From Algicola sp. (GTDB lineage Bacteria > Bacteroidota > Bacteroidia > Flavobacteriales > Flavobacteriaceae): a DNA stretch of 64,000 nt. Position numbers and translations under genes: made by a program. Below, piece by piece: positions 10,034 to 58,808 of this stretch (position 1 is its first letter; every line of letters starts with the position of its first letter). The DNA is taken from assembly GCA_018222915.1 (NCBI GenBank), contig JAAEZI010000015.1, positions 1 to 64,000 of the forward strand, read 5' to 3'. Under the pieces are notes generated by a model, which saw nothing but the letters and a program-made list of their open reading frames with translations, did not search any database and had not been told where the DNA came from.

Positions 10034-12598
10034 TTAAAAAGGATAGTTAACACCAATATTATAGACGGCTTTGCTAAAGTTGTAATCCTTAAACCAACGT
10101 TCGCCTAATTCTCTTGACGGATCATAGGTTTTAAAGCCAATATCACCTCTTAAGACAAAGAATCCGAAATCATATCTAATACCGAAACCAGTCCCGACGG
10201 CCATATCTCTTAAAGAGCTAAATCCATCAAACGTGGCTCGGTCATCCTCAACATTATCAAACACATTCCAGATGTTACCTGCATCTACGAAAACAGCACC
10301 ATTGAACCGACCAAGAATATTAAATCGCTGTTCAGCACTTAAGGTAATTTTAAGGTTAGCTTCATTAAATTCGTTGGTAGTTAAAGAACTTCCAGGTCCG
10401 AGATTATAGGCTGTCCAGGCACGAATGTCGTTTGGTCCTCCAGCAAAGAAACTTTCGGCAAAAGGGATACTATTAGAATTTCCGTAGGGAATAGCGATAC
10501 CAAAATAAGTGCGTATGGCAAACTCATTATTTCTGCCTAAATCCCAATGTTTTACATAATCGACTTCCGTTTTTGCATACTGCGAAAATGGCACGCCGAA
10601 CATCTCATAACGACCATCTGCGTTACGGGATAAGTTGAAAACACTGGATAAATTAGAGAGTAAATTGCCCGCCAATTCTAATCGCAATCTCAAAATTGAG
10701 AAGTCATTGTCAAATAAATTCTCACGTCTATTCTTTATATAATTAAAGCTTGATGAAAAAATCAAGTTGTCCTCAGTAAGACGGTCCTTTCGCTGTTTGA
10801 TATTATTAACGGTGATATAATTATCATCATTTGGTGTAAGGGATGTGTTGTTATTTAGAACATCATTGATAAAAGCATCTGCTGGAGAAAACGGATTGGA
10901 CAGACTAGAATTATTTAGTGTTTCGTTATTACCAATATAGGCAATGTCTCTAGCTATGGAATTCAACCTATCGAAAGACGTCGTATAAACGCCAAAATAG
11001 TTATTGGTGTTAAGGTTTTTTACAAACTGAACATTAAATAAATCTAAATTATTAGTCACTTTCGTAGAAGGATACCAATTATAATTAACGGTTCCTGTAA
11101 ATGCTTGTTTATCTAATCCAATGTTACGCTGACTGGTCGCATTTAAACTAATACGCGTACTTGGCGACATGTACTTTGGAATGATTTTATCAGTATTAAA
11201 AGGCAGAAAAAAGCGTGGAATTTTCAAGTTTAAATTTCCACCAAGTTCGTTGATGTCGAAAAATTGATCTTTGCTATTGGAGGCATCCTTTGAAGAACCA
11301 ATGGCTCCTAAAGCGGATATTTCCAAAGTTTCAGCGCCTCTAAAAATGTTCCGAATAACCAAACCTGTACTAAAGGCAAAACCAATGGTTTGAATATTAC
11401 TTTGAGACACTTCGAAACTACTAGTGAGCTCGAATTTTTTCTTCGGAACCAAAAATATATTAGCTGTAAGTGTCGAATCTGCTTCATTTTCGACGTATTC
11501 AATTCTGGGATATCTGAAGGCTTGTAATTCACTTAAATATCGGTACGTTCGTGTTCTGTCTAAATCTCTAAAGACTTCATTCTTATTGATAAAAACAGCA
11601 TCTGTAATTGCTTTGGGTCTGTATTTAAACTTGTCAAAACTGTATAAGTGATAATCTTTAAATTGTATGGAATCGGTGATGACGTCATTTCGATTTTCAT
11701 TTTTGAAATCAGTAAAAATATTGACATCTTTTATTTTATAAATCTTAAAAGGGACTCTTGTAATGGAGTCTTCGACCCGAATGGCTCTATCTGCGATGAG
11801 CAAATCAGTGTTAATTTTTTTGTTGGTATCAATGGTGTCTAAATCGAACGTGATGTAGTCTTGTCCAAAATGATAATAGCCAGAATTACGCAAAGAAGCT
11901 GTTAGTCGGTCGCGTTCTTCTGAATAATTAGCTTCATCATATTGTTGTCCTTTTTTAATTACAGAACCACGCTTTAATCGTTGGCGATATAATGAATCCA
12001 TACTTGGCGTTTTTATAAACGCCTTTATGGAATCTAAAATATAGGGATCTCCAGTAGTAACCTTGTAAGTGACATTCGCCCTCTGACTGCTGTCCTTTTC
12101 AGTTTCAAAAGAGGTTTCTACATTAAACCAACCTTTACTGAAGTAGTACTTTTTTAAGGCATTGGCTGTTTTTTCTGCGCGCTTTTCATCGTAGATGACT
12201 GGAGCTTCTCCTGTTTTTTTTAACCAGGTATTGAATTTTTTTCTAGACTGCAACTCACGATAAAATTGTTTCTTAGACAGAAGTTTTGTTTTCCAAGCGA
12301 CTTTCCGAGGATTATCCAGAACTTTCGCTTGTAATATCGAGTCAATGTTGGGTCTTGCAAGGTTATAAATATGGATACGTAATGGCACGCCTAAAAGTTT
12401 GCCATTGGGTTTTTGGTAGATGAGGTTATTAACTGTTTCGGTATTGGTCTTTTTATCATTTACCAAAACGGTATTATCAACCAAAAGGTGCTCATCTTCA
12501 CCAATCCGTTTCATGACATTACACGAAAACATCGTGCATAGCAAACCGCAAAATAATATCTTGGATAAACGTATTTTCAAAAAAGAAGATGTTAGCAT
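10034..12598 (-). CDS. tamL: TamL-like Omp85 lipoprotein (outer-membrane assembly)
   Basis: An 854-residue Omp85-family barrel with lipidated N-terminus. The signal peptide ends in lipobox MFSC with Cys near residue 26. POTRA-like repeats fill the N-terminal half (for example GDPYILDSIK), and the C-terminal ~400 residues form a D15-type barrel with RAWTAYNLGPGS resembling the barrel's inward loop and a last strand ending NIGVNYPF. In Bacteroidota the TamA role is taken by the lipoprotein TamL, which works with TamB; that matches this architecture. No tamB is adjacent. A TAAATTTG box lies just upstream. Confidence 0.88.
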   Translation of the reverse strand: MLTSSFLKIRLSKILFCGLLCTMFSCNVMKRIGEDEHLLVDNTVLVNDKKTNTETVNNLIYQKPNGKLLGVPLRIHIYNLARPNIDSILQAKVLDNPRKVAWKTKLLSKKQFYRELQSRKKFNTWLKKTGEAPVIYDEKRAEKTANALKKYYFSKGWFNVETSFETEKDSSQRANVTYKVTTGDPYILDSIKAFIKTPSMDSLYRQRLKRGSVIKKGQQYDEANYSEERDRLTASLRNSGYYHFGQDYITFDLDTIDTNKKINTDLLIADRAIRVEDSITRVPFKIYKIKDVNIFTDFKNENRNDVITDSIQFKDYHLYSFDKFKYRPKAITDAVFINKNEVFRDLDRTRTYRYLSELQAFRYPRIEYVENEADSTLTANIFLVPKKKFELTSSFEVSQSNIQTIGFAFSTGLVIRNIFRGAETLEISALGAIGSSKDASNSKDQFFDINELGGNLNLKIPRFFLPFNTDKIIPKYMSPSTRISLNATSQRNIGLDKQAFTGTVNYNWYPSTKVTNNLDLFNVQFVKNLNTNNYFGVYTTSFDRLNSIARDIAYIGNNETLNNSSLSNPFSPADAFINDVLNNNTSLTPNDDNYITVNNIKQRKDRLTEDNLIFSSSFNYIKNRRENLFDNDFSILRLRLELAGNLLSNLSSVFNLSRNADGRYEMFGVPFSQYAKTEVDYVKHWDLGRNNEFAIRTYFGIAIPYGNSNSIPFAESFFAGGPNDIRAWTAYNLGPGSSLTTNEFNEANLKITLSAEQRFNILGRFNGAVFVDAGNIWNVFDNVEDDRATFDGFSSLRDMAVGTGFGIRYDFGFFVLRGDIGFKTYDPSRELGERWFKDYNFSKAVYNIGVNYPF

Positions 12599-13437: not shown

Positions 13438-14151
13438 TTACTGAAACGTAAAATTTAAGAAAATTCCGCGTGTTTTTAAGGTGGTAATGTTGCTGGTCCA
13501 AGGACTGTTTGGATCTTCATCACGAACCAGTTCATCGTTAAGTGCAAAAACACCGCGAATAGAAGGTGTGAATTTAAACCATTGGTTGTAGAAATCTACA
13601 CCAACACCCAACTCATAGAATAGCACATTCTTTTTAGTTCTAAATTGGCCAGCAGCATTATCATCAGGATTTTCTTGATTACTGGACAAGTTGAGCGCCA
13701 TTGAAAACCCTCCTATAATGAAAGGTTTAAAATTGTTCAGTCGTTTTGTCGAGACTTTGAGTAAAAGCGGAAAATGAACATAAGTCGATTTCACCTCGCG
13801 CATCAAATCTGCATTTGTAAAGTCAATACCATTAAAATAGCTTGGGTCATATAACAAGGTTCTCGTGGTTATAAAGAGTCCTGGTTCAAATCTGAGATCA
13901 AAATGTTCATGAAGGCGAAGATTTGAAATCAATCCTACACTAAAGCCCATATTGGTTTCAACCAAGATATCTTTTTTGTCTTGTTCGTAATTGAACTGAT
14001 AGTCGTAATTATTCAAGCCAAGATAAAAACCCCAAGACACTCTTTTTTTGTCAAAGTTCTCAATGTTTTTAATTTTTTCTTTGCTAAATAATTGAGCACT
14101 AACGCCTTGTGTGGCCAAAATTAAGGTTAAAACGATCAGTATTTTTCTCAT
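13438..14151 (-). CDS. porT: Type IX secretion / gliding protein PorT (SprT)
   Basis: A 237-residue outer-membrane beta-barrel protein with signal peptide (cleavage near VSA-QLF). It has the pattern I know from flavobacterial SprT/PorT: QLFSKEKIKN..NFDKK, the SWGFYLGLN strand, LMREVKSTYVHFPLLLK, NNFKPFIIGG and the C-terminal RGIFLNFTFQ. PorT is needed for type IX secretion and gliding motility in this phylum. Position next to the menaquinone methyltransferase gene is also typical. Both genes run on the minus strand with 32 bases between them, so they may be co-transcribed. Confidence 0.9.
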   Translation of the reverse strand: MRKILIVLTLILATQGVSAQLFSKEKIKNIENFDKKRVSWGFYLGLNNYDYQFNYEQDKKDILVETNMGFSVGLISNLRLHEHFDLRFEPGLFITTRTLLYDPSYFNGIDFTNADLMREVKSTYVHFPLLLKVSTKRLNNFKPFIIGGFSMALNLSSNQENPDDNAAGQFRTKKNVLFYELGVGVDFYNQWFKFTPSIRGVFALNDELVRDEDPNSPWTSNITTLKTRGIFLNFTFQ

Positions 14152-52274: not shown

Positions 52275-52308
52275 AAAAGCTTCACTGAAATTAGTGAAGC
52301 TTTTTTTT
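52275..52308. terminator. Terminator after tRNA-Gly, shared with pepE
   Basis: A perfect 12-bp stem AAAAGCTTCACT / AGTGAAGCTTTT with a 6-base loop and eight T on the plus strand. The T-tract runs into the stop codon of the convergent pepE. Confidence 0.9.
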
Positions 52309-53014
52309 ATGTAAGTCCACTTAAATCTGTACCTGTCTTTATTTCATAAGGTGTTTTGTCATATTCAAAAATTCGAGCGTCTAGGGTGCCTTTTAAAGAA
52401 ATTTGTCGACCTTTAACTTCTAGCCAACTCCCTTCTCTTAGACCAACTACGGGTTGCGTATTAAATTTATGAAATTCCTTAATTCTTGTCTCACGAGTTT
52501 CACCCATATGCTTGCTAGTGGGATCAGGATCTAAATAATGTGGATTAATATTGAAAGGGACAAAACCAAAGGTTTTAAAACTAGGAGGATACACAATTGG
52601 CATATCGTTGGTTGTGTTTATGGTGAGCCCGCAAATGTTACTACCAGCGCTCGTACCTAAGTAAGGCGTGCCTTCATTGACAACCGTTTTTATGGTGTCT
52701 ATGAGATCGTGTTTGTAGAGTTGATTTACCAATACAAACGTATTACCACCACCAGTAAATATAGCTTGTGCATTTTTGATGGCTTCTTTCGGATTATCAA
52801 ATTCATGAATTCCTCTCACTTTCTTGCCAATTGTATCAAAAGCTTGTTGAATGCGTTCCGTGTAGGTGTCATGTGTTATACCACTTGGTCTTGCATAAGG
52901 AATAAATAGAATTTCTGAGGCATTTTTATAGAATTCTTGTAAAGGCGTCATTAAATAATCCAATGGCTTTCCACCATGAATTGTTGAAGTACTGGCTATA
53001 AGTATATTTTTCAT
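52307..53014 (-). CDS. pepE: Dipeptidase E (peptidase family S51)
   Basis: A 235-residue cytoplasmic serine peptidase that cleaves Asp-X dipeptides. The nucleophile lies in LGTSAGSNICG (Ser in GTSAGSN), preceded by IFTGGGNTFVLV and followed by the NINPHYLD and GLREGSWLEV segments of the family. It is convergent with the tRNA gene and shares its terminator. Confidence 0.92.
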   Translation of the reverse strand: MKNILIASTSTIHGGKPLDYLMTPLQEFYKNASEILFIPYARPSGITHDTYTERIQQAFDTIGKKVRGIHEFDNPKEAIKNAQAIFTGGGNTFVLVNQLYKHDLIDTIKTVVNEGTPYLGTSAGSNICGLTINTTNDMPIVYPPSFKTFGFVPFNINPHYLDPDPTSKHMGETRETRIKEFHKFNTQPVVGLREGSWLEVKGRQISLKGTLDARIFEYDKTPYEIKTGTDLSGLT

Positions 53015-53124
53015 TGGATGTAATTTGTTGTAAATTTAGATAAAGGATTAATTTAACAAAAGTTTAGAGGGCCTTTATTAATAATTTAAGGTTTCAAATC
53101 TTTTCTTTACTTAAAATAACAACT

Positions 53125-53937
53125 ATGAAAAAAATTTTACTTCTACTACTGACATTTTCTTTTAGTTACTTAGGCGCTCAAAATCTGGATCGTATTGAGG
53201 TTGAAGGTAAGATTATCGTGGAAGGCGATGATGTTGAAGGCATCACTGTTTTCAACACGTCTTCTAATAAAGGGGTTATCACTAACGAAAAAGGCGAATT
53301 TAAAATCGCTGTAGCGCTCAACGATTTTATTGAGTTTCGGGCCTTGCAGTACCAAAATTTTGATTTAAAAGTGAGTCAGGCGATATTAGATTCTAAACGA
53401 ATGCGTGTGTTTTTAATAGAAGAAATTAACAAGCTTGATGAAATACTTGTATTAACAAAGGGCTTAACGGGAGATTTGGGAACAGATGTTTCATCAGTCC
53501 AGACGTTTAATCCAAAATTGGATGCTTTATATTTTGGTATTAAGCGAAGTGATGAATATGAGTTTAGTGATGATAATCGTTCAAGTATAGAAAATGAAGT
53601 TGTTCATTCTCAAGCACGCACCATGGTAAATGGATTGAATATTGTCAATGTCGTTGATCAGTTACTGTTGCCATTATTCAGAAACAAAATAAAAGACAAA
53701 GAGGCTTCTGGCGTGCCGGAAGTGCCAACCACATCAGTGAAATATTATTTTGGATCAGAATTTATCATCGATAATTTTAATATTCCAGAGCATCGGGTGG
53801 AAGAGTTTATAAGGTTTGTGGAAGATGATGAAGATTTTGACGTGACGTTACTCAATTATGGTAGGGAATTGGAGTTTTTAGAATTACTGTATCAAAAAAG
53901 TCTCATTTTCCTAAAATCTGGTGGTGATAAAGACTAA
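53125..53937 (+). CDS. Exported carboxypeptidase-regulatory-like protein, paralogue 1
   Basis: A 270-residue protein with signal peptide (MKKILLLLLTFSFSYLGA). Residues ~22-110 form a CarboxypepD_reg-like beta-sandwich: GKIIVEGDDVEGITVFNTSS, GEFKIAVALND and INKLDEI. The C-terminal part is mainly helical and of unknown fold. It is the most divergent of three tandem paralogues; its 3' end overlaps the next gene by 17 bases. These domains usually sit in front of TonB receptors, but here stand alone. Confidence 0.8.
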   Translation: MKKILLLLLTFSFSYLGAQNLDRIEVEGKIIVEGDDVEGITVFNTSSNKGVITNEKGEFKIAVALNDFIEFRALQYQNFDLKVSQAILDSKRMRVFLIEEINKLDEILVLTKGLTGDLGTDVSSVQTFNPKLDALYFGIKRSDEYEFSDDNRSSIENEVVHSQARTMVNGLNIVNVVDQLLLPLFRNKIKDKEASGVPEVPTTSVKYYFGSEFIIDNFNIPEHRVEEFIRFVEDDEDFDVTLLNYGRELEFLELLYQKSLIFLKSGGDKD

Positions 53938-54691
53938 GCATTTATTTGGTGTTATACTCCTTTTTTATGCACCGAATCTTGAAGCACAAACACAAGACAT
54001 CTCTGGTAAGGTTTATGCCAACGGTGAAGTTTCAGGAATTCATGTTTTGAATATTTCTGCGAGTAAATTTAGTGTTAGCGATGATGAGGGTAATTTTGTG
54101 ATACCTGTTCGCTTAAGCGATACCGTCATCGTATCAGGTGTGCAATACAAACGTTATCAGCTAGTTATAGATGATATAATCATGCAGGCTAAACAAGTAA
54201 TTGTGAACCTTGAAGATGGTGTTAATGAATTGGATGAGGTGGTTGTTGGTAAGGTGTTAACAGGTGATTTGATGACTGATATTGAAAATAATGAATCTAA
54301 GCGCGACATAAATTTCTATGATTTGGGAATACCTGGTTATACTGGGCCAAGAATGACACAAAGTGAGAGACGCTTATATGAGGCCAACAGTGGTGGTGGA
54401 ATTGTTCCACTTAACCCATTAATTAATTGGATTACAGGACGAAATAAGCGTTTGAAAGCCCAGATAAAACGAGAAGCGTTGGAAGTGGCTAGAAATGAAG
54501 CCGAAGCCAAATTTTCAAAATTGCTTTTTGATGACGATACCCTGAGTGCATCTATGCGGAAGGAATTTTTCTTCTTTTGTAGTGATGACCCCAAATTTAA
54601 ACAAGTAAGTGATCGAGGTACAGACCTAGAAATGTTGATGTTTTTACAAGAAAAACTGAGCCAATTTAAATTACAAATTGAAGAAAAATAA
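53921..54691 (+). CDS. Exported carboxypeptidase-regulatory-like protein, paralogue 2
   Basis: A 256-residue paralogue starting at GTG 53921 (or the next GTG, 53924) inside the end of paralogue 1; no in-frame ATG fits the signal peptide. Signal sequence FGVILLFYAPNLEAQT is followed by the domain with GKVYANGEVSGIHVLNISA and ELDEVVVGKVLTGDL, then RDINFYDLGIPGYTG and a charged helical C-terminus. It is very like paralogue 3 in sequence and order. Overlapping, non-ATG starts suggest tight translational coupling. Confidence 0.82.
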   Translation: MVIKTKHLFGVILLFYAPNLEAQTQDISGKVYANGEVSGIHVLNISASKFSVSDDEGNFVIPVRLSDTVIVSGVQYKRYQLVIDDIIMQAKQVIVNLEDGVNELDEVVVGKVLTGDLMTDIENNESKRDINFYDLGIPGYTGPRMTQSERRLYEANSGGGIVPLNPLINWITGRNKRLKAQIKREALEVARNEAEAKFSKLLFDDDTLSASMRKEFFFFCSDDPKFKQVSDRGTDLEMLMFLQEKLSQFKLQIEEK

Positions 54692-55478
54692 AGACATACT
54701 CATTCTGTTGGCGGCTTTCTACTTGGTCATTGCAGTTCCTGCACAAACGATTAATTTAAAAGGCAAGATTACAGCCAATGCCGATGTTGGGCATATTCAT
54801 GTTCTTAACATTTCAGCTAAAGAATATACAGTCTCAGATGATCAAGGCCAATTTGAAATTCCGGTGAATGTAAAAGATACCCTCTTAATTTCAAGCGTCC
54901 AGTACATCCCTCAGCACATACAAATCACTAAAGAAATTATGGACAATAAGACGCTAAATGTGGTTCTTGAAGATAGGGTCAACGAGCTCGACGAAGTGGT
55001 TGTTGGAAAGGTGTTAACTGGCAATTTGCTCATAGATGTTGAAAACAGTGATGCCCAACGTGATATTAATTTTTATGACGTAGGAATTCCTGGCTATACA
55101 GGAAAACCTAAAACCCAAAAGGAACGTCGTTTGTATGAAGCAGACGCAGGAAAATCCATTGTGATTGCTCCTTTATTTATCGGTATTAACATTCATAAGA
55201 TTCTCAATAAGATTTCAGGTCGTACAAAGAAACTTAAAAGCCATGTAAAATTGGAAGCTCAAATAACCTGTATGAACCAGATGACCTCCGAGTTTAAGTC
55301 CTTACTGTTTGCAGATAAATCGATTACCGATGCCATGATAGCCGATTTTTTCTATTACGCAGCTGAAGACCCAAAGTTTACAGAATTATGCAGCGATTAC
55401 AATAGTTTTGAAGTTTATAAGTTTTTGGTTTCAAAATTACAAGCGATAGACGACGACAATTCTCAGTCTAAGGATTAA
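54678..55478 (+). CDS. Exported carboxypeptidase-regulatory-like protein, paralogue 3
   Basis: A 266-residue paralogue starting at TTG 54678 within paralogue 2 (14-base overlap), beginning KKNKDILILLAAFYLVIAVPAQT, a signal peptide. The domain with GHIHVLNISAKEYTVSDDQG and NELDEVVVGKVLTG is followed by RDINFYDVGIPGYTG and a helical C-terminus. Together with paralogues 1 and 2 it arose by tandem duplication. The function is unknown; it is likely periplasmic. The next gene is 66 bases downstream. Confidence 0.82.
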   Translation: MKKNKDILILLAAFYLVIAVPAQTINLKGKITANADVGHIHVLNISAKEYTVSDDQGQFEIPVNVKDTLLISSVQYIPQHIQITKEIMDNKTLNVVLEDRVNELDEVVVGKVLTGNLLIDVENSDAQRDINFYDVGIPGYTGKPKTQKERRLYEADAGKSIVIAPLFIGINIHKILNKISGRTKKLKSHVKLEAQITCMNQMTSEFKSLLFADKSITDAMIADFFYYAAEDPKFTELCSDYNSFEVYKFLVSKLQAIDDDNSQSKD

Positions 55479-55544
55479 ATCCATTCAAGTATTAACATTT
55501 TTTAAGACATTATCTTTTGATAAAATGGCTATTTTTACAACTTA

Positions 55545-56054
55545 ATGATTGTTATGAATGCCATAAGGCTTACTATTTTAGCTTTAATATTTCCCTTATT
55601 TACTGCGGCTGCCCACAAATATTATGTGAGTGTGACACAGATAAGTTATGTCAAGGAGAAACGAGCGGTTCAAATGATATCCCGAATTGATATTGCGGAT
55701 TTAGAATTGACCTTGCAAGAACGTTATGATTCATCCATTAAACTGACTGATATCAATGAAAAACCTACAGTCGATTCCTACATTAAATCTTATTTAGATC
55801 AAAAATTACAAATCAAGATTAATACGCAAAAAGTCGCTTTTAATTTTATAGGAAAAGAATACCAAAACGACGTGATCGTTTGTTATTTGGAAATAGAAAA
55901 TGTTGACGCTATCAACACCATTGAAATTAAAAACGCATTACTCTTTGATAGGTTTTCAGATCAGAAAAATATTGTAAAAACTAAAATAAACGGATCGGTC
56001 GAGAATTTAATTTTCACGAGAGAACAACAAGACCAATACTTAAACTTTAAATAA
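55545..56054 (+). CDS. DUF6702-like exported protein
   Basis: A 169-residue protein with signal peptide (LTILALIFPLFTAAA-HKYY; start at 55545 or 55554). The mature part begins HKYYVSVTQISYV and is mixed alpha/beta. I recognise it as the flavobacterial DUF6702 type from memory; the function is unknown. It lies 66 bases after the three paralogues and 23 bases before the M1 peptidase gene, so it is likely part of one transcription unit. Confidence 0.72.
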   Translation: MIVMNAIRLTILALIFPLFTAAAHKYYVSVTQISYVKEKRAVQMISRIDIADLELTLQERYDSSIKLTDINEKPTVDSYIKSYLDQKLQIKINTQKVAFNFIGKEYQNDVIVCYLEIENVDAINTIEIKNALLFDRFSDQKNIVKTKINGSVENLIFTREQQDQYLNFK

Positions 56055-56077
56055 TTCAACCCTTTTTAATTACATCT

Positions 56078-58375
56078 ATGAAATTACTAAAATACATGTG
56101 TTTGTCCATAGCTTTTTTGTCACTAAATGCTTGGGCACAGGATCAAGAACAAGATCGTAAACCTGGTCATACGAATCAGAATAAATTTAAACAGTTGTAT
56201 GATGAGTTTTCGACACCAAATATGTTTCGAACAGGTTCTGGAGCACCTGGTCCTGCGTATTATCAGCAACAAGCTGATTACAAAATGGACATTGAAATTA
56301 ACGATGAAACCGCTGTATTAAGTGGTAATGAAACCATTACTTACACCAATAATTCTCCTGACGAGTTGAGCTATTTATGGGTGCAATTAGATCAGAATGT
56401 ACGTCAAAAGGACTCGCCATCTCAAGATATTGGTACGAGTCGAGTGGCACCAGCTTTATCGGCATCTCGATTTGCGTCTTCTTACATGGAAGAGCGTTTT
56501 GATGGTGGATTCAATATTGAAAAGGTGACAAGTACAGATGGTAAAGCACTCCCTCATACCATACACCAAACCATGATGCGTATTGAGTTGCCTAAACCAA
56601 TGAAGACTGGTGATAAGTTTTCTTTTAATATCAAATGGTGGTATCAGATAAATAATCATGTGACCGATGGTGGACGTTCTGGCTATGAATTATTCCCTGA
56701 CGGAAATAGAAACTATGTAATCGCGCAATTCTATCCTAGAATGGCTGTTTATAATGATGTAGAAGGTTGGCAAAACTCCCAATTCTGGGGTCGTGACGAA
56801 TTTGCGCTTCCATTCGGAAATTTTGAAGTAAATATAACGGTTCCAGCAGATCATCTCTTGGACGGTACAGGCCGACTTACAAATAGAAAAGACGTATTCT
56901 CAAGTGATATGATGAAGCGTTATGAAAAAGCGAAGACATCTTATAACGAACCGGTAGTTATCGCGACACAAGAAGAAGCTGAGGCAAGAGAAAAATCCCG
57001 CTCAAAGAAAAAGAAGACTTGGAAATTGTCTGCAGAAAATGTTCGAGATTTTGGTTTTGCAACTTCAAGAAAATACATATGGGATATGATGGCCGTAAAA
57101 ATTGGTGATAAAGACGTTATGGCTGTGTCTCTATACTCTAAAGAAGGAAATCCTCTTTGGGAACAATGGTCTACAAAAGCCGTGGCTAGTACATTAAAAT
57201 CGTACTCTCGAATGACTTTCGATTACCCTTATCATAAAGCCATTTCAGTACATGCAAGACGCCAAGGAATGGAATATCCAATGATTTGTTGGAATTATGG
57301 TAGACCAGATGAAAATGGTAATTATGATGATCGAACAAAATATGGTATGATGAGTGTGATCATTCACGAAGTTGGTCATAACTTTTTCCCAATGATTGTG
57401 AATAGTGATGAACGCCAATGGACATGGATGGACGAAGGACTAAATACATTTATGCAATATGTTGCAGAGCAAGATTTTGGAGAGTGGTATCCAGATGCGC
57501 TATCTCCAGGAGATGAAACTTACCCATCGCGTCGTGGACCTGCCAAAAATATTGTGAGGTATATGGGAGGTAATCAAGATTATATTTCGCCTATCATGAC
57601 TAAAGGTTTGAATGTATATCAGTTTGGCAATAACGCCTACGGAAAACCAGCAACAGCCTTAAATATTTTGAGAGAAACGGTTATGGGACGTGAATTGTTC
57701 GATTATGCCTTCAAGGAATATGCGCAACGCTGGATGTTCAAACACCCAACACCTGAAGACTTTTTCCGTACGATGGAAGATGCATCAGCATTCGATTTGG
57801 ATTGGTACTGGAGAGGATGGTTTTATACAACAGATTGGGTAGATATAGGTCTTAAAGATGTTAAAAAATATTACGTGTCTTCAATCCCTAATCAATACGC
57901 TAAAAATTATGCGGAAAGTAGAAGTTTGAATTTAGATGATCTTGATTTAGTTTACTTAACGGAAGAAGGTAGTGAAGAGTTTGACGAAAAATTACGTCAA
58001 GGGACCTCAGAAGATAATTCACCAACCTTGAAAGCTTATCTTTTGGATAATTTTACGGCTGAAGAACGACAAAAAATGCAACAGCCTAAATATTTTTATG
58101 ACATTACTTTTGAAAAACCAGGTGGTTTAGTTATGCCTATTATTGTTGAATATACTTACGCAGATGGAACGTCTAAAACAGAAACGTATCCAGCACAAAT
58201 TTGGCGTTATAATGATAACGAGGTCACTAAAGCGATTGCTTCAGAAAAAGAAATCGTTTCAATTACGATTGATCCAAAACAAGAAACAGCGGATATTGAT
58301 ACTACCAACAATTCATGGCCAAAAGAAGTGGAGGATAGTGAATTTGATAAGTTCAAAAATAAAGTGAAAGGTTAA
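56078..58375 (+). CDS. M1-family zinc metallopeptidase (aminopeptidase)
   Basis: A 765-residue exported gluzincin. The signal peptide (LCLSIAFLSLNAWA-QDQ) is followed by the M1 N-terminal beta-domain. The catalytic core has HEVGHN (HExxH zinc ligands and catalytic Glu, about residue 430) and WMDEGLN with the third ligand. It probably trims peptides in the periplasm or at the surface. It closes the unit that includes DUF6702 and possibly the three paralogues; a strong terminator follows. Confidence 0.92.
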   Translation: MKLLKYMCLSIAFLSLNAWAQDQEQDRKPGHTNQNKFKQLYDEFSTPNMFRTGSGAPGPAYYQQQADYKMDIEINDETAVLSGNETITYTNNSPDELSYLWVQLDQNVRQKDSPSQDIGTSRVAPALSASRFASSYMEERFDGGFNIEKVTSTDGKALPHTIHQTMMRIELPKPMKTGDKFSFNIKWWYQINNHVTDGGRSGYELFPDGNRNYVIAQFYPRMAVYNDVEGWQNSQFWGRDEFALPFGNFEVNITVPADHLLDGTGRLTNRKDVFSSDMMKRYEKAKTSYNEPVVIATQEEAEAREKSRSKKKKTWKLSAENVRDFGFATSRKYIWDMMAVKIGDKDVMAVSLYSKEGNPLWEQWSTKAVASTLKSYSRMTFDYPYHKAISVHARRQGMEYPMICWNYGRPDENGNYDDRTKYGMMSVIIHEVGHNFFPMIVNSDERQWTWMDEGLNTFMQYVAEQDFGEWYPDALSPGDETYPSRRGPAKNIVRYMGGNQDYISPIMTKGLNVYQFGNNAYGKPATALNILRETVMGRELFDYAFKEYAQRWMFKHPTPEDFFRTMEDASAFDLDWYWRGWFYTTDWVDIGLKDVKKYYVSSIPNQYAKNYAESRSLNLDDLDLVYLTEEGSEEFDEKLRQGTSEDNSPTLKAYLLDNFTAEERQKMQQPKYFYDITFEKPGGLVMPIIVEYTYADGTSKTETYPAQIWRYNDNEVTKAIASEKEIVSITIDPKQETADIDTTNNSWPKEVEDSEFDKFKNKVKG

Positions 58376-58392
58376 TCATTCACATTTAAATT

Positions 58393-58424
58393 AAAAAAAA
58401 CCGGCTTTTACAGCCGGTTTTTTT
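58393..58424 (+). terminator. Terminator after the M1 peptidase gene
   Basis: Stem AAACCGGCT / AGCCGGTTT with a 5-base loop and a T-tract, 18 bases past the stop. Confidence 0.9.
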
Positions 58425-58508
58425 ATGTTTTTTGCTGTACACACAACATGAGCAACAGAAGCTTGTAGAAATGGTGTTAATTGTATAATTAATATCAAAA
58501 CATCTCAT

Positions 58509-58520: not shown

Positions 58521-58808
58521 GTGATATACAAGTCAACATTATTATTTATCGGAACAACAGAAGTAATGTTTATACTTCTCGTGGTGGTCATGGTGTTTGG
58601 TGCCAAACGTATACCTGAAATTGCTAAAGGTATGGGTAAAGGCATGAGAATGTTACGCGACGCTACCAACGATATTAAAACTGAAATCACCAATAGTGCC
58701 GAAAAGCAAGGTATTGATACAAGTGTCACTAAAGACATTCAAGAGGAGATCAATAAGGTGAAAGATGATCTTGAAGATTTTACGGGTTCCATCCGAAGAA
58801 ACCCTTAA
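58521..58808 (+). CDS. tatA: Sec-independent translocase protein TatA/TatE type
   Basis: A 95-residue protein with the TatA plan: short N-terminus, one membrane helix (LLFIGTTEVMFILLVVVMVFG), then the amphipathic helix GAKRIPEIAKGMGKGMRMLRDATNDIK and a charged tail. It forms the pore of Tat export. The start is GTG at 58521; an ATG at 58565 would delete half the membrane helix. No tatC is adjacent. A likely Tat substrate is the M15 carboxypeptidase at 50893-51630. Confidence 0.93.
   Translation: MIYKSTLLFIGTTEVMFILLVVVMVFGAKRIPEIAKGMGKGMRMLRDATNDIKTEITNSAEKQGIDTSVTKDIQEEINKVKDDLEDFTGSIRRNP

Follow-up and report, generated by a model that had tools for sequence, protein, structure and literature searches.

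Organization of the locus

The stretch of DNA analysed, called the window throughout, comprises 64,000 nucleotides of contig JAAEZI010000015.1 from Algicola sp. and contains an array of three overlapping genes for exported proteins, with the following features.

52307..53014, minus strand: PepE dipeptidase gene, divergent, conserved upstream neighbour (profile match, synteny)
53125..53937, plus strand: gene 1, class A BamP-like, 270 aa (ATG-start open frame; PF13715 and NF053692 matches; loop class)
53452..53742, plus strand: gene 1 inter-domain loop, aa 110-206, class A (loop-profile scoring)
53921..54691, plus strand: gene 2, class B BamP-like, 256 aa (open frame, GTG at 53921 or 53924; NF053692 match)
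54248..54505, plus strand: gene 2 inter-domain loop, aa 110-195, class B (loop-profile scoring; LGIPGYTG..TQSERRLYEA..LNPLINWITGR)
54678..55478, plus strand: gene 3, class B BamP-like, 266 aa (TTG-start open frame; PF13715 and NF053692 matches)
55005..55286, plus strand: gene 3 inter-domain loop, aa 110-203, class B (loop-profile scoring)
55545..56054, plus strand: DUF6702 protein, 169 aa (PF20420)
56078..58375, plus strand: M1 family metallopeptidase, 765 aa, HEVGH motif (open frame, profile match)
58394..58424, plus strand: terminator-like hairpin after the M1 gene, 13 pairs and a T-rich tail (consensus match only)

An earlier reading of the sequence alone had described three overlapping, exported tandem paralogues, and its frames and start codons are confirmed, as are the overlaps, which in the list of open frames measure 17 nt between genes 1 and 2 and 14 nt between genes 2 and 3. 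Identity is 44% between genes 2 and 3 and ∼25% between gene 1 and either of them. The profile of the gene 1 class aligns with that of the gene 2 and 3 class over 257 columns in hhalign (probability 100%, E 3.1e-50), and homology among the three genes is, by profile comparison, found to extend through the C-terminal domain. The shared carboxypeptidase-regulatory-like domain is borne out in part: PF13715 (CarbopepD_reg_2) matches all three proteins (33.4, 27.1 and 35.4 bits for genes 1, 2 and 3), but the match of gene 2 falls under the Pfam cut-off of 32.2 bits. The reported ELDE-type motif is present as KLDEILV in gene 1 and as ELDEVVV in genes 2 and 3, with LDE common to all. Gene 1 is laid out as a signal peptide, an N-terminal beta domain, a loop and a C-terminal helical domain.

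Downstream of the array, the hairpin after the M1 gene perhaps closes a five-gene unit; terminator-like sites numbered 2 in the scan, as against 3.5 expected in shuffles. The Bacteroidota-type promoter pattern consists of TTG, 16-24 bases and TAnnTTTG, and none was found on the plus strand from 52901 to 58500. A gene judged TatA-like by eye (window 58521-58808) follows the M1 gene, as it does in Flavobacterium johnsoniae CI04. Elsewhere in the window, an Omp85-type protein of 854 aa (10034-12598), which has a lipoprotein-like start and partial TIGR03303 hits, is a candidate partner barrel and is taken here to be possibly TamL. A small outer-membrane-like protein (13438-14151), encoded beside a UbiE-like methyltransferase gene, is presumed to be perhaps the T9SS protein PorT/SprT.

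The BamP family

BamP is a tripartite periplasmic subunit of the BAM complex of F. johnsoniae, where it corresponds to Fjoh_1771 and to chain E of PDB entry 9n2d (PMC12611786, cited throughout for its text). Its N-terminal domain is bound to POTRA domains 4 and 5 of BamA, its loop passes into the barrel of BamA and exits at the lateral seam, and its C-terminal domain, described as poorly resolved, sits between POTRA 1 and BamD (PMC12611786). According to the same text, F. johnsoniae has three further BamP homologues with diverging loops, and BamP proteins confer protection against darobactin: deletion of all four homologues renders a permeabilised strain sensitive to darobactin, and loss of the others adds to the sensitivity that follows from loss of BamP4. 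BamP2 and BamP3 are without appreciable expression on rich medium, BamP4 being the exception. The authors conclude that all four homologues likely act at the same BamA site, and they state that BamP homologues are detectable only in Flavobacteriaceae (PMC12611786). Among the papers listed on BamP, on darobactin in Bacteroidota and on BamG and BamH, this is the one that treats BamP as a BAM subunit; BamP does not occur in the main text of PMC12578637.

The three window proteins match the NCBIfam profile of BamP, NF053692, over nearly their full length, with 80.8 bits for gene 1 (residues 3-262), 57.9 for gene 2 (residues 6-250) and 79.9 for gene 3 (residues 1-255). These scores, and the best score of the genome (97 bits), lie far below the equivalog cut-off of 230 bits, by which the window genes are not classed as BamP itself. 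A score below the cut-off does not exclude family membership, because the neighbours of bamP in F. johnsoniae CI04 also fall under it: the third gene of the CI04 array, the BamP orthologue, reaches 376.6 bits and the others 110.2 and 88.4. Profiles built from the two classes of array genes match 9n2d chain E over residues 1-247 and 3-247, a comparison that is partly circular as these profiles contained Flavobacterium rows. It was repeated with Flavobacterium-free profiles against the BamP orthologue of locus L013, which is 97% identical to the BamP fragment used for fetching the Flavobacterium-type loci. The full protein then scores 120.2 bits with class A and 102.1 with class B, and its loop alone 33.5 bits (4.2e-7) with class A and 0.3 with class B. 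On this profile evidence, similarity to BamP beyond the N-terminal domain places the window genes in the BamP family in the broad sense.

Pairwise comparison gives a weaker link. In single-sequence phmmer runs against the PDB, made for genes 1 and 3, chain E of 9n2d is found at 2.1e-5 by gene 3 and at 0.013 by gene 1. BLASTP gives 25% identity to CI04 BamP for gene 3 and 23% for gene 2; gene 1 has no BLASTP match to CI04 BamP at E 0.01 and is 21% identical in alignment. For gene 1 the pairwise link to BamP is thus weak, and its assignment to the family draws on profiles and on the position of the locus.

Structure prediction is consistent with this assignment and adds little to it. The AlphaFold2 models (pLDDT 88.6 for gene 3 and 78.7 for gene 1, whose loop is mostly below 70) place a beta domain at about residues 24-96 and C-terminal helices at about 218-264 in gene 3 and 205-265 in gene 1, so that both proteins are predicted to have the BamP-type tripartite order of exported N-terminal domain, loop and three-helix C-terminal domain. 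In Foldseek searches, 9n2d chain E is the top match of gene 3 (6.2e-7) and the runner-up for gene 1 (7.9e-7), where a SusC extension ranks higher. Alignment with VIA-align to chain E covers the N-terminal domain only (Z 13.2, rmsd 1.7, 81 aligned; Z 13.1, rmsd 2.1, 83 aligned) and is tied with the match to the SusC N-terminal extension (Z 12.3 and 12.4); such comparisons say little about the loop or the C-terminal domain.

This tie, together with the phmmer search of gene 1, in which a TonB-linked receptor (2.5e-4) ranks ahead of BamP, would also suit stand-alone N-terminal-extension domains acting on TonB-dependent receptors of the SusC type instead of on BAM, a reading rejected as scarcely credible since the BamP profile match continues through the loop and the C-terminal domain, and the locus, with no receptor gene between pepE and the M1 gene in the window, is that of bamP.

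Synteny and other BamP-like genes

In F. johnsoniae CI04 (L016), a reversed pepE gene is followed by three BamP-like genes, which overlap by 20 and 11 nt and end with the BamP orthologue, and by DUF6702, M1 peptidase and TatA-like genes. The order PepE, array, DUF6702 and M1 is common to the window and CI04, and the window array occupies the bamP locus. The earlier view of the array as an undescribed system is contradicted on this point, as its products belong to a family, BamP and its homologues, that was described in print in 2025, and its position is syntenic with that of bamP. DUF6702 genes are present at all 80 loci collected from other genera; the motif HK[YF][YF] lies near the N-terminus of DUF6702 at 15/15 same-genus, 80/80 other-genus and 71/80 Flavobacterium-type loci, and a stricter histidine-after-signal pattern proved too strict (11/15, 79/80 and 30/80).

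The genome of the window has five full-length BamP-like genes, namely the array, one on contig C2 and one on C64, and 11 further matches to the BamP profile are partial, nine of them in frames longer than 450 aa. BamA (C52) and BamD (C2) are encoded elsewhere in the genome. The gene on C2 (L001:1480-2232) has a loop weakly of class A (8.2 bits), and that on C64 (L004:1477-2262) adjoins a DEAD-box helicase-like gene, an arrangement also seen in CI04. Apart from its array, CI04 has a BamP-like pair at C9 and the helicase-linked gene; BamP4, for which the text of PMC12611786 has no locus tag, may be among these. Four other close Flavobacterium genomes (E 1e-22) all have one extra gene in a 269-aa frame, and three of the four have another in a frame of 235-255 aa, the types being inferred from frame length only. 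Full-length relatives assigned to the helicase-linked type by best BLASTP hits occur in six other GTDB families of the order (L210, L213, L214, L215, L217 and L218), with no helicase gene in the stretches around them. Other BamP-like proteins, not clearly of any class, are found in three more families of the order (L211, L212, L216, L219 and L220), with tandem pairs in L211 and L220. Distant relatives of BamP thus seem, by sequence similarity, to extend beyond Flavobacteriaceae in the GTDB sense.

Copy number and overlap across genomes

The array was followed through loci selected by the M1 gene and not by BamP. The same-genus set comprises the window and 15 of its 21 congeners, all those in which the M1 gene was matched at E 1e-150, giving 16 loci; the other-genus set comprises 80 loci fetched from the 101 genomes of the GTDB family with an M1 match, 21 being left out on account of contig edges or lower rank. 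Genes were counted when they had at least 225 aa and covered at least 200 profile positions, broken genes being excluded (for example in L134, L147 and L181). Related rows and loci are not independent, and the counts are accordingly not counts of independent events.

Three full-length genes are present in 15 of the 16 same-genus loci, the third gene being broken in the remaining one, and the array is therefore not a chance arrangement. All 31 neighbouring pairs of the genus overlap, 27 of them by 14 nt, with gaps computed from the first in-frame start and overlaps possibly overstated; the earlier description of the overlaps is therefore sustained for the genus. Since 14 nt is the prevailing value, the second of two consecutive GTG codons of gene 2 (53921 and 53924), which gives a 14-nt overlap with gene 1, may be the real start. 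Overlap of this kind suggests translational coupling. The third array gene is split in G004 (L117), and the M1 gene has internal stops in G006 and G019, a hint that the operon can lose some of its parts. The array seems independent of the M1 gene, because adjacent genes also occur in the six same-genus genomes without an M1 match, three genes in G003, G015, G020 and G021 and two in G014 and G017.

Among the 80 other-genus loci, 77 have one to four full-length BamP-like genes and three have none: zero, one, two, three and four genes are found at 3, 16, 37, 21 and 3 loci, respectively. Only 54 of 88 neighbouring pairs overlap there and 34 do not; at 80 Flavobacterium-type loci 165 of 166 pairs do. 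An obligatory complex of the three products in fixed ratio, apart from BAM, would be in line with the earlier reading, and the overlapping pairs and the nearly constant gene number of the congeners speak for it. Against it stand the zero to four copies and non-overlapping pairs of the other genera, as well as the membership of the proteins in a known family of BAM subunits. A strict three-part system does not hold beyond the genus: copy number and overlap vary widely across the 80 loci, which the sequence-only reading had itself named as evidence against its proposal, and the fixed complex, very improbable overall, is rejected on the variation in copy number.

Two classes of inter-domain loop

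The loops of the array proteins fall into two classes. A sequence pattern served to choose the seed loops; for scoring, every loop was run against profiles from whose training its own locus had been left out. The class A motif is D..T.V.N...G.N.VNI and the class B motif GIPG..GK..TQ.ER.L..A...L.P..N.ISGRTK.LK. With profiles lacking the window's genus and Flavobacterium, the loop of gene 1 scores 96.9 bits with class A and 13.2 with class B, that of gene 2 103.5 with class B and 7.2 with class A, and that of gene 3 105.6 with class B and 6.2 with class A; the same class is recovered for all 47 loops of the genus. The idea that more than one kind of protein is retained together at this locus is thereby upheld.

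Among the 77 other-genus loci with genes, the order is AB at 37, AAB at 14, ABB at 7, ABBB at 2 and ABB? at 1, with A alone at 10, B alone at 5 and one locus unclassified. Both classes are present, with A upstream of B, at all 61 loci with at least two full-length genes. The 16 loci of the window's genus are ABB at 15 and AB at one. The 80 Flavobacterium-type loci, which bear the name Flavobacterium apart from L024 ([Flexibacter] sp.) and L052 (Flavobacteriaceae bacterium), are BBA at 72, BBBA at 7 and BA at one with profiles trained without Flavobacterium. Both classes occur at 80/80 with B upstream; these loci were fetched via a close relative of BamP, so that class A is present by selection and the information lies solely in class B and the gene order. 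Gene order differs between Flavobacterium and the other genera, whereas the pairing of A with B does not.

Flavobacterium-free profiles assign the loop of Flavobacterium BamP to class A in three genomes (31.9-34.5 bits, with class B at most 0.3), and the loops of its two neighbours to class B and not class A. Because the class A profile recognises the BamP loop, the loop of gene 1 belongs to the class whose structure was solved within BamA, and those of genes 2 and 3 belong to class B; within the array, the BamP-type loop is found in gene 1 and not in genes 2 and 3. For the class B loop, no solved structure showing where it binds was found. The division into two loop classes is a new finding of this analysis, and none of the listed papers on BamP describes it. 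The family is a known one; what is new is that two conserved plug types are retained side by side.

Age of the split

A tree built with the loop columns removed (191 of 245 rows used) has one branch, with support 93, that has 88 of the 94 class A rows on one side and none of the 92 class B rows with them. As the parts outside the loop separate in this way, A and B are considered, on phylogenetic grounds, to be paralogues of long standing in the majority of these genera. The six class A exceptions are three Flavobacterium BamP rows, one member of the CI04 pair, the C2-type gene of the window genome and gene 2 of L151. In Flavobacterium BamP the loop is of class A, while the rest of the protein stands apart from the class A rows of other genera in this tree, a grouping with weak support (51), and loop-free profiles hardly separate A from B in Flavobacterium. 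The class A loop of Flavobacterium BamP may have arisen a second time, on a class B-like background.

Possible roles of the array proteins

The best explanation overall, and a rather probable one, is that the three genes encode secreted periplasmic BAM accessory proteins of the BamP family, most likely competing for BamA. The loop position and the darobactin effect are those published for F. johnsoniae (PMC12611786), and homology would give the window proteins the same role. Docking on BamA would then be through the N-terminal domain, at POTRA domains 4 and 5, with the loop between the domains inserted into the barrel and lying at its lateral seam; the helices of the C-terminal domain would tie POTRA 1 to BamD. 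In the idle state, the loop would guard the seam and exclude seam-binding inhibitors such as darobactin, and it would have to move out for client insertion. Gene 1, with its class A loop, would correspond in function to BamP, and genes 2 and 3 would correspond to the class B genes next to bamP in Flavobacterium. The products of genes 2 and 3 would most likely be rivals of gene 1 for BamA and would not share one BamA with it, because the four homologues of F. johnsoniae are concluded in the text of PMC12611786 to act at the same site. Any mode of binding for the class B loop is putative.

A rather unlikely alternative shares the role of class A as a plug of BamA and differs for class B, the loop of which would act elsewhere, at another site or state of BamA or in another Omp85 barrel, for example the Omp85-type protein of the window. 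It draws on conservation: across the other genera and the window, mean column entropy in class B is 2.12 for the loop, 2.04 for the N-terminal domain and 2.56 for the C-terminal domain, and in class A 2.62 for the loop as against 1.96 and 2.27. The class B loop is about as conserved as the folded N-terminal domain and more so than the C-terminal domain, the class A loop being looser, and such conservation suggests a specific partner. Further points in its favour are the class B motif, without detectable likeness to class A or to the loops of BamP orthologues, the joint retention of both classes at every multi-gene locus of other genera and the separation in the loop-free tree. The additive darobactin effect and the same-site conclusion in the text of PMC12611786 argue against it, as do the loci with class A or class B alone.

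A broader form of this alternative can be put forward tentatively for Flavobacteriaceae as a whole: an ancient class A plug of the seam and a conserved class B plug, acting at another BamA site or state or in another Omp85 barrel, might be co-translated for switching between guarded states. If so, assembly machines would be switchable between such states.

With competing BamP-family accessory proteins as the preferred explanation, an apparently orphan operon is placed within the newly described BAM machinery of Bacteroidota. The presence of two loop classes side by side in most genera surveyed suggests that they are not simply spare copies of one another. With a motif now defined, the role of the extra BamP proteins can be put to the test, and it bears on the darobactin resistance of these bacteria.

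Comparison with known systems

The DUF6702 family is described in the passages of PMC12537917 that concern it as metal-binding via an N-terminal histidine, kept in 65% of members, and as having M1 peptidase neighbours; these passages make no mention of a link to BamP genes. The gene downstream of the array belongs to this family by its PF20420 match and likewise has an M1 neighbour; the tested protein came from Pseudomonas aeruginosa (PMC12537917), that of the window from Algicola sp.

The N-terminal extension of SusC/RagA (PF13715) resembles the array proteins in the fold of the N-terminal domain. Unlike SusC/RagA, the window proteins are without plug or barrel and have a loop and a helical domain instead.

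The closest system is BamP of F. johnsoniae, with which the array has in common the neighbourhood seen in CI04, the order of signal peptide, beta domain, loop and helical domain, and, in gene 1, the class A loop. It differs in that the window genes lie below the equivalog cut-off, are 21-25% identical to CI04 BamP and have the class A gene first in the array, where Flavobacterium has it last. Like BamP2, BamP3 and BamP4 of F. johnsoniae in the text of PMC12611786, the window proteins are homologues with divergent loops, and the two class B genes beside bamP in CI04 are probably BamP2 and BamP3.
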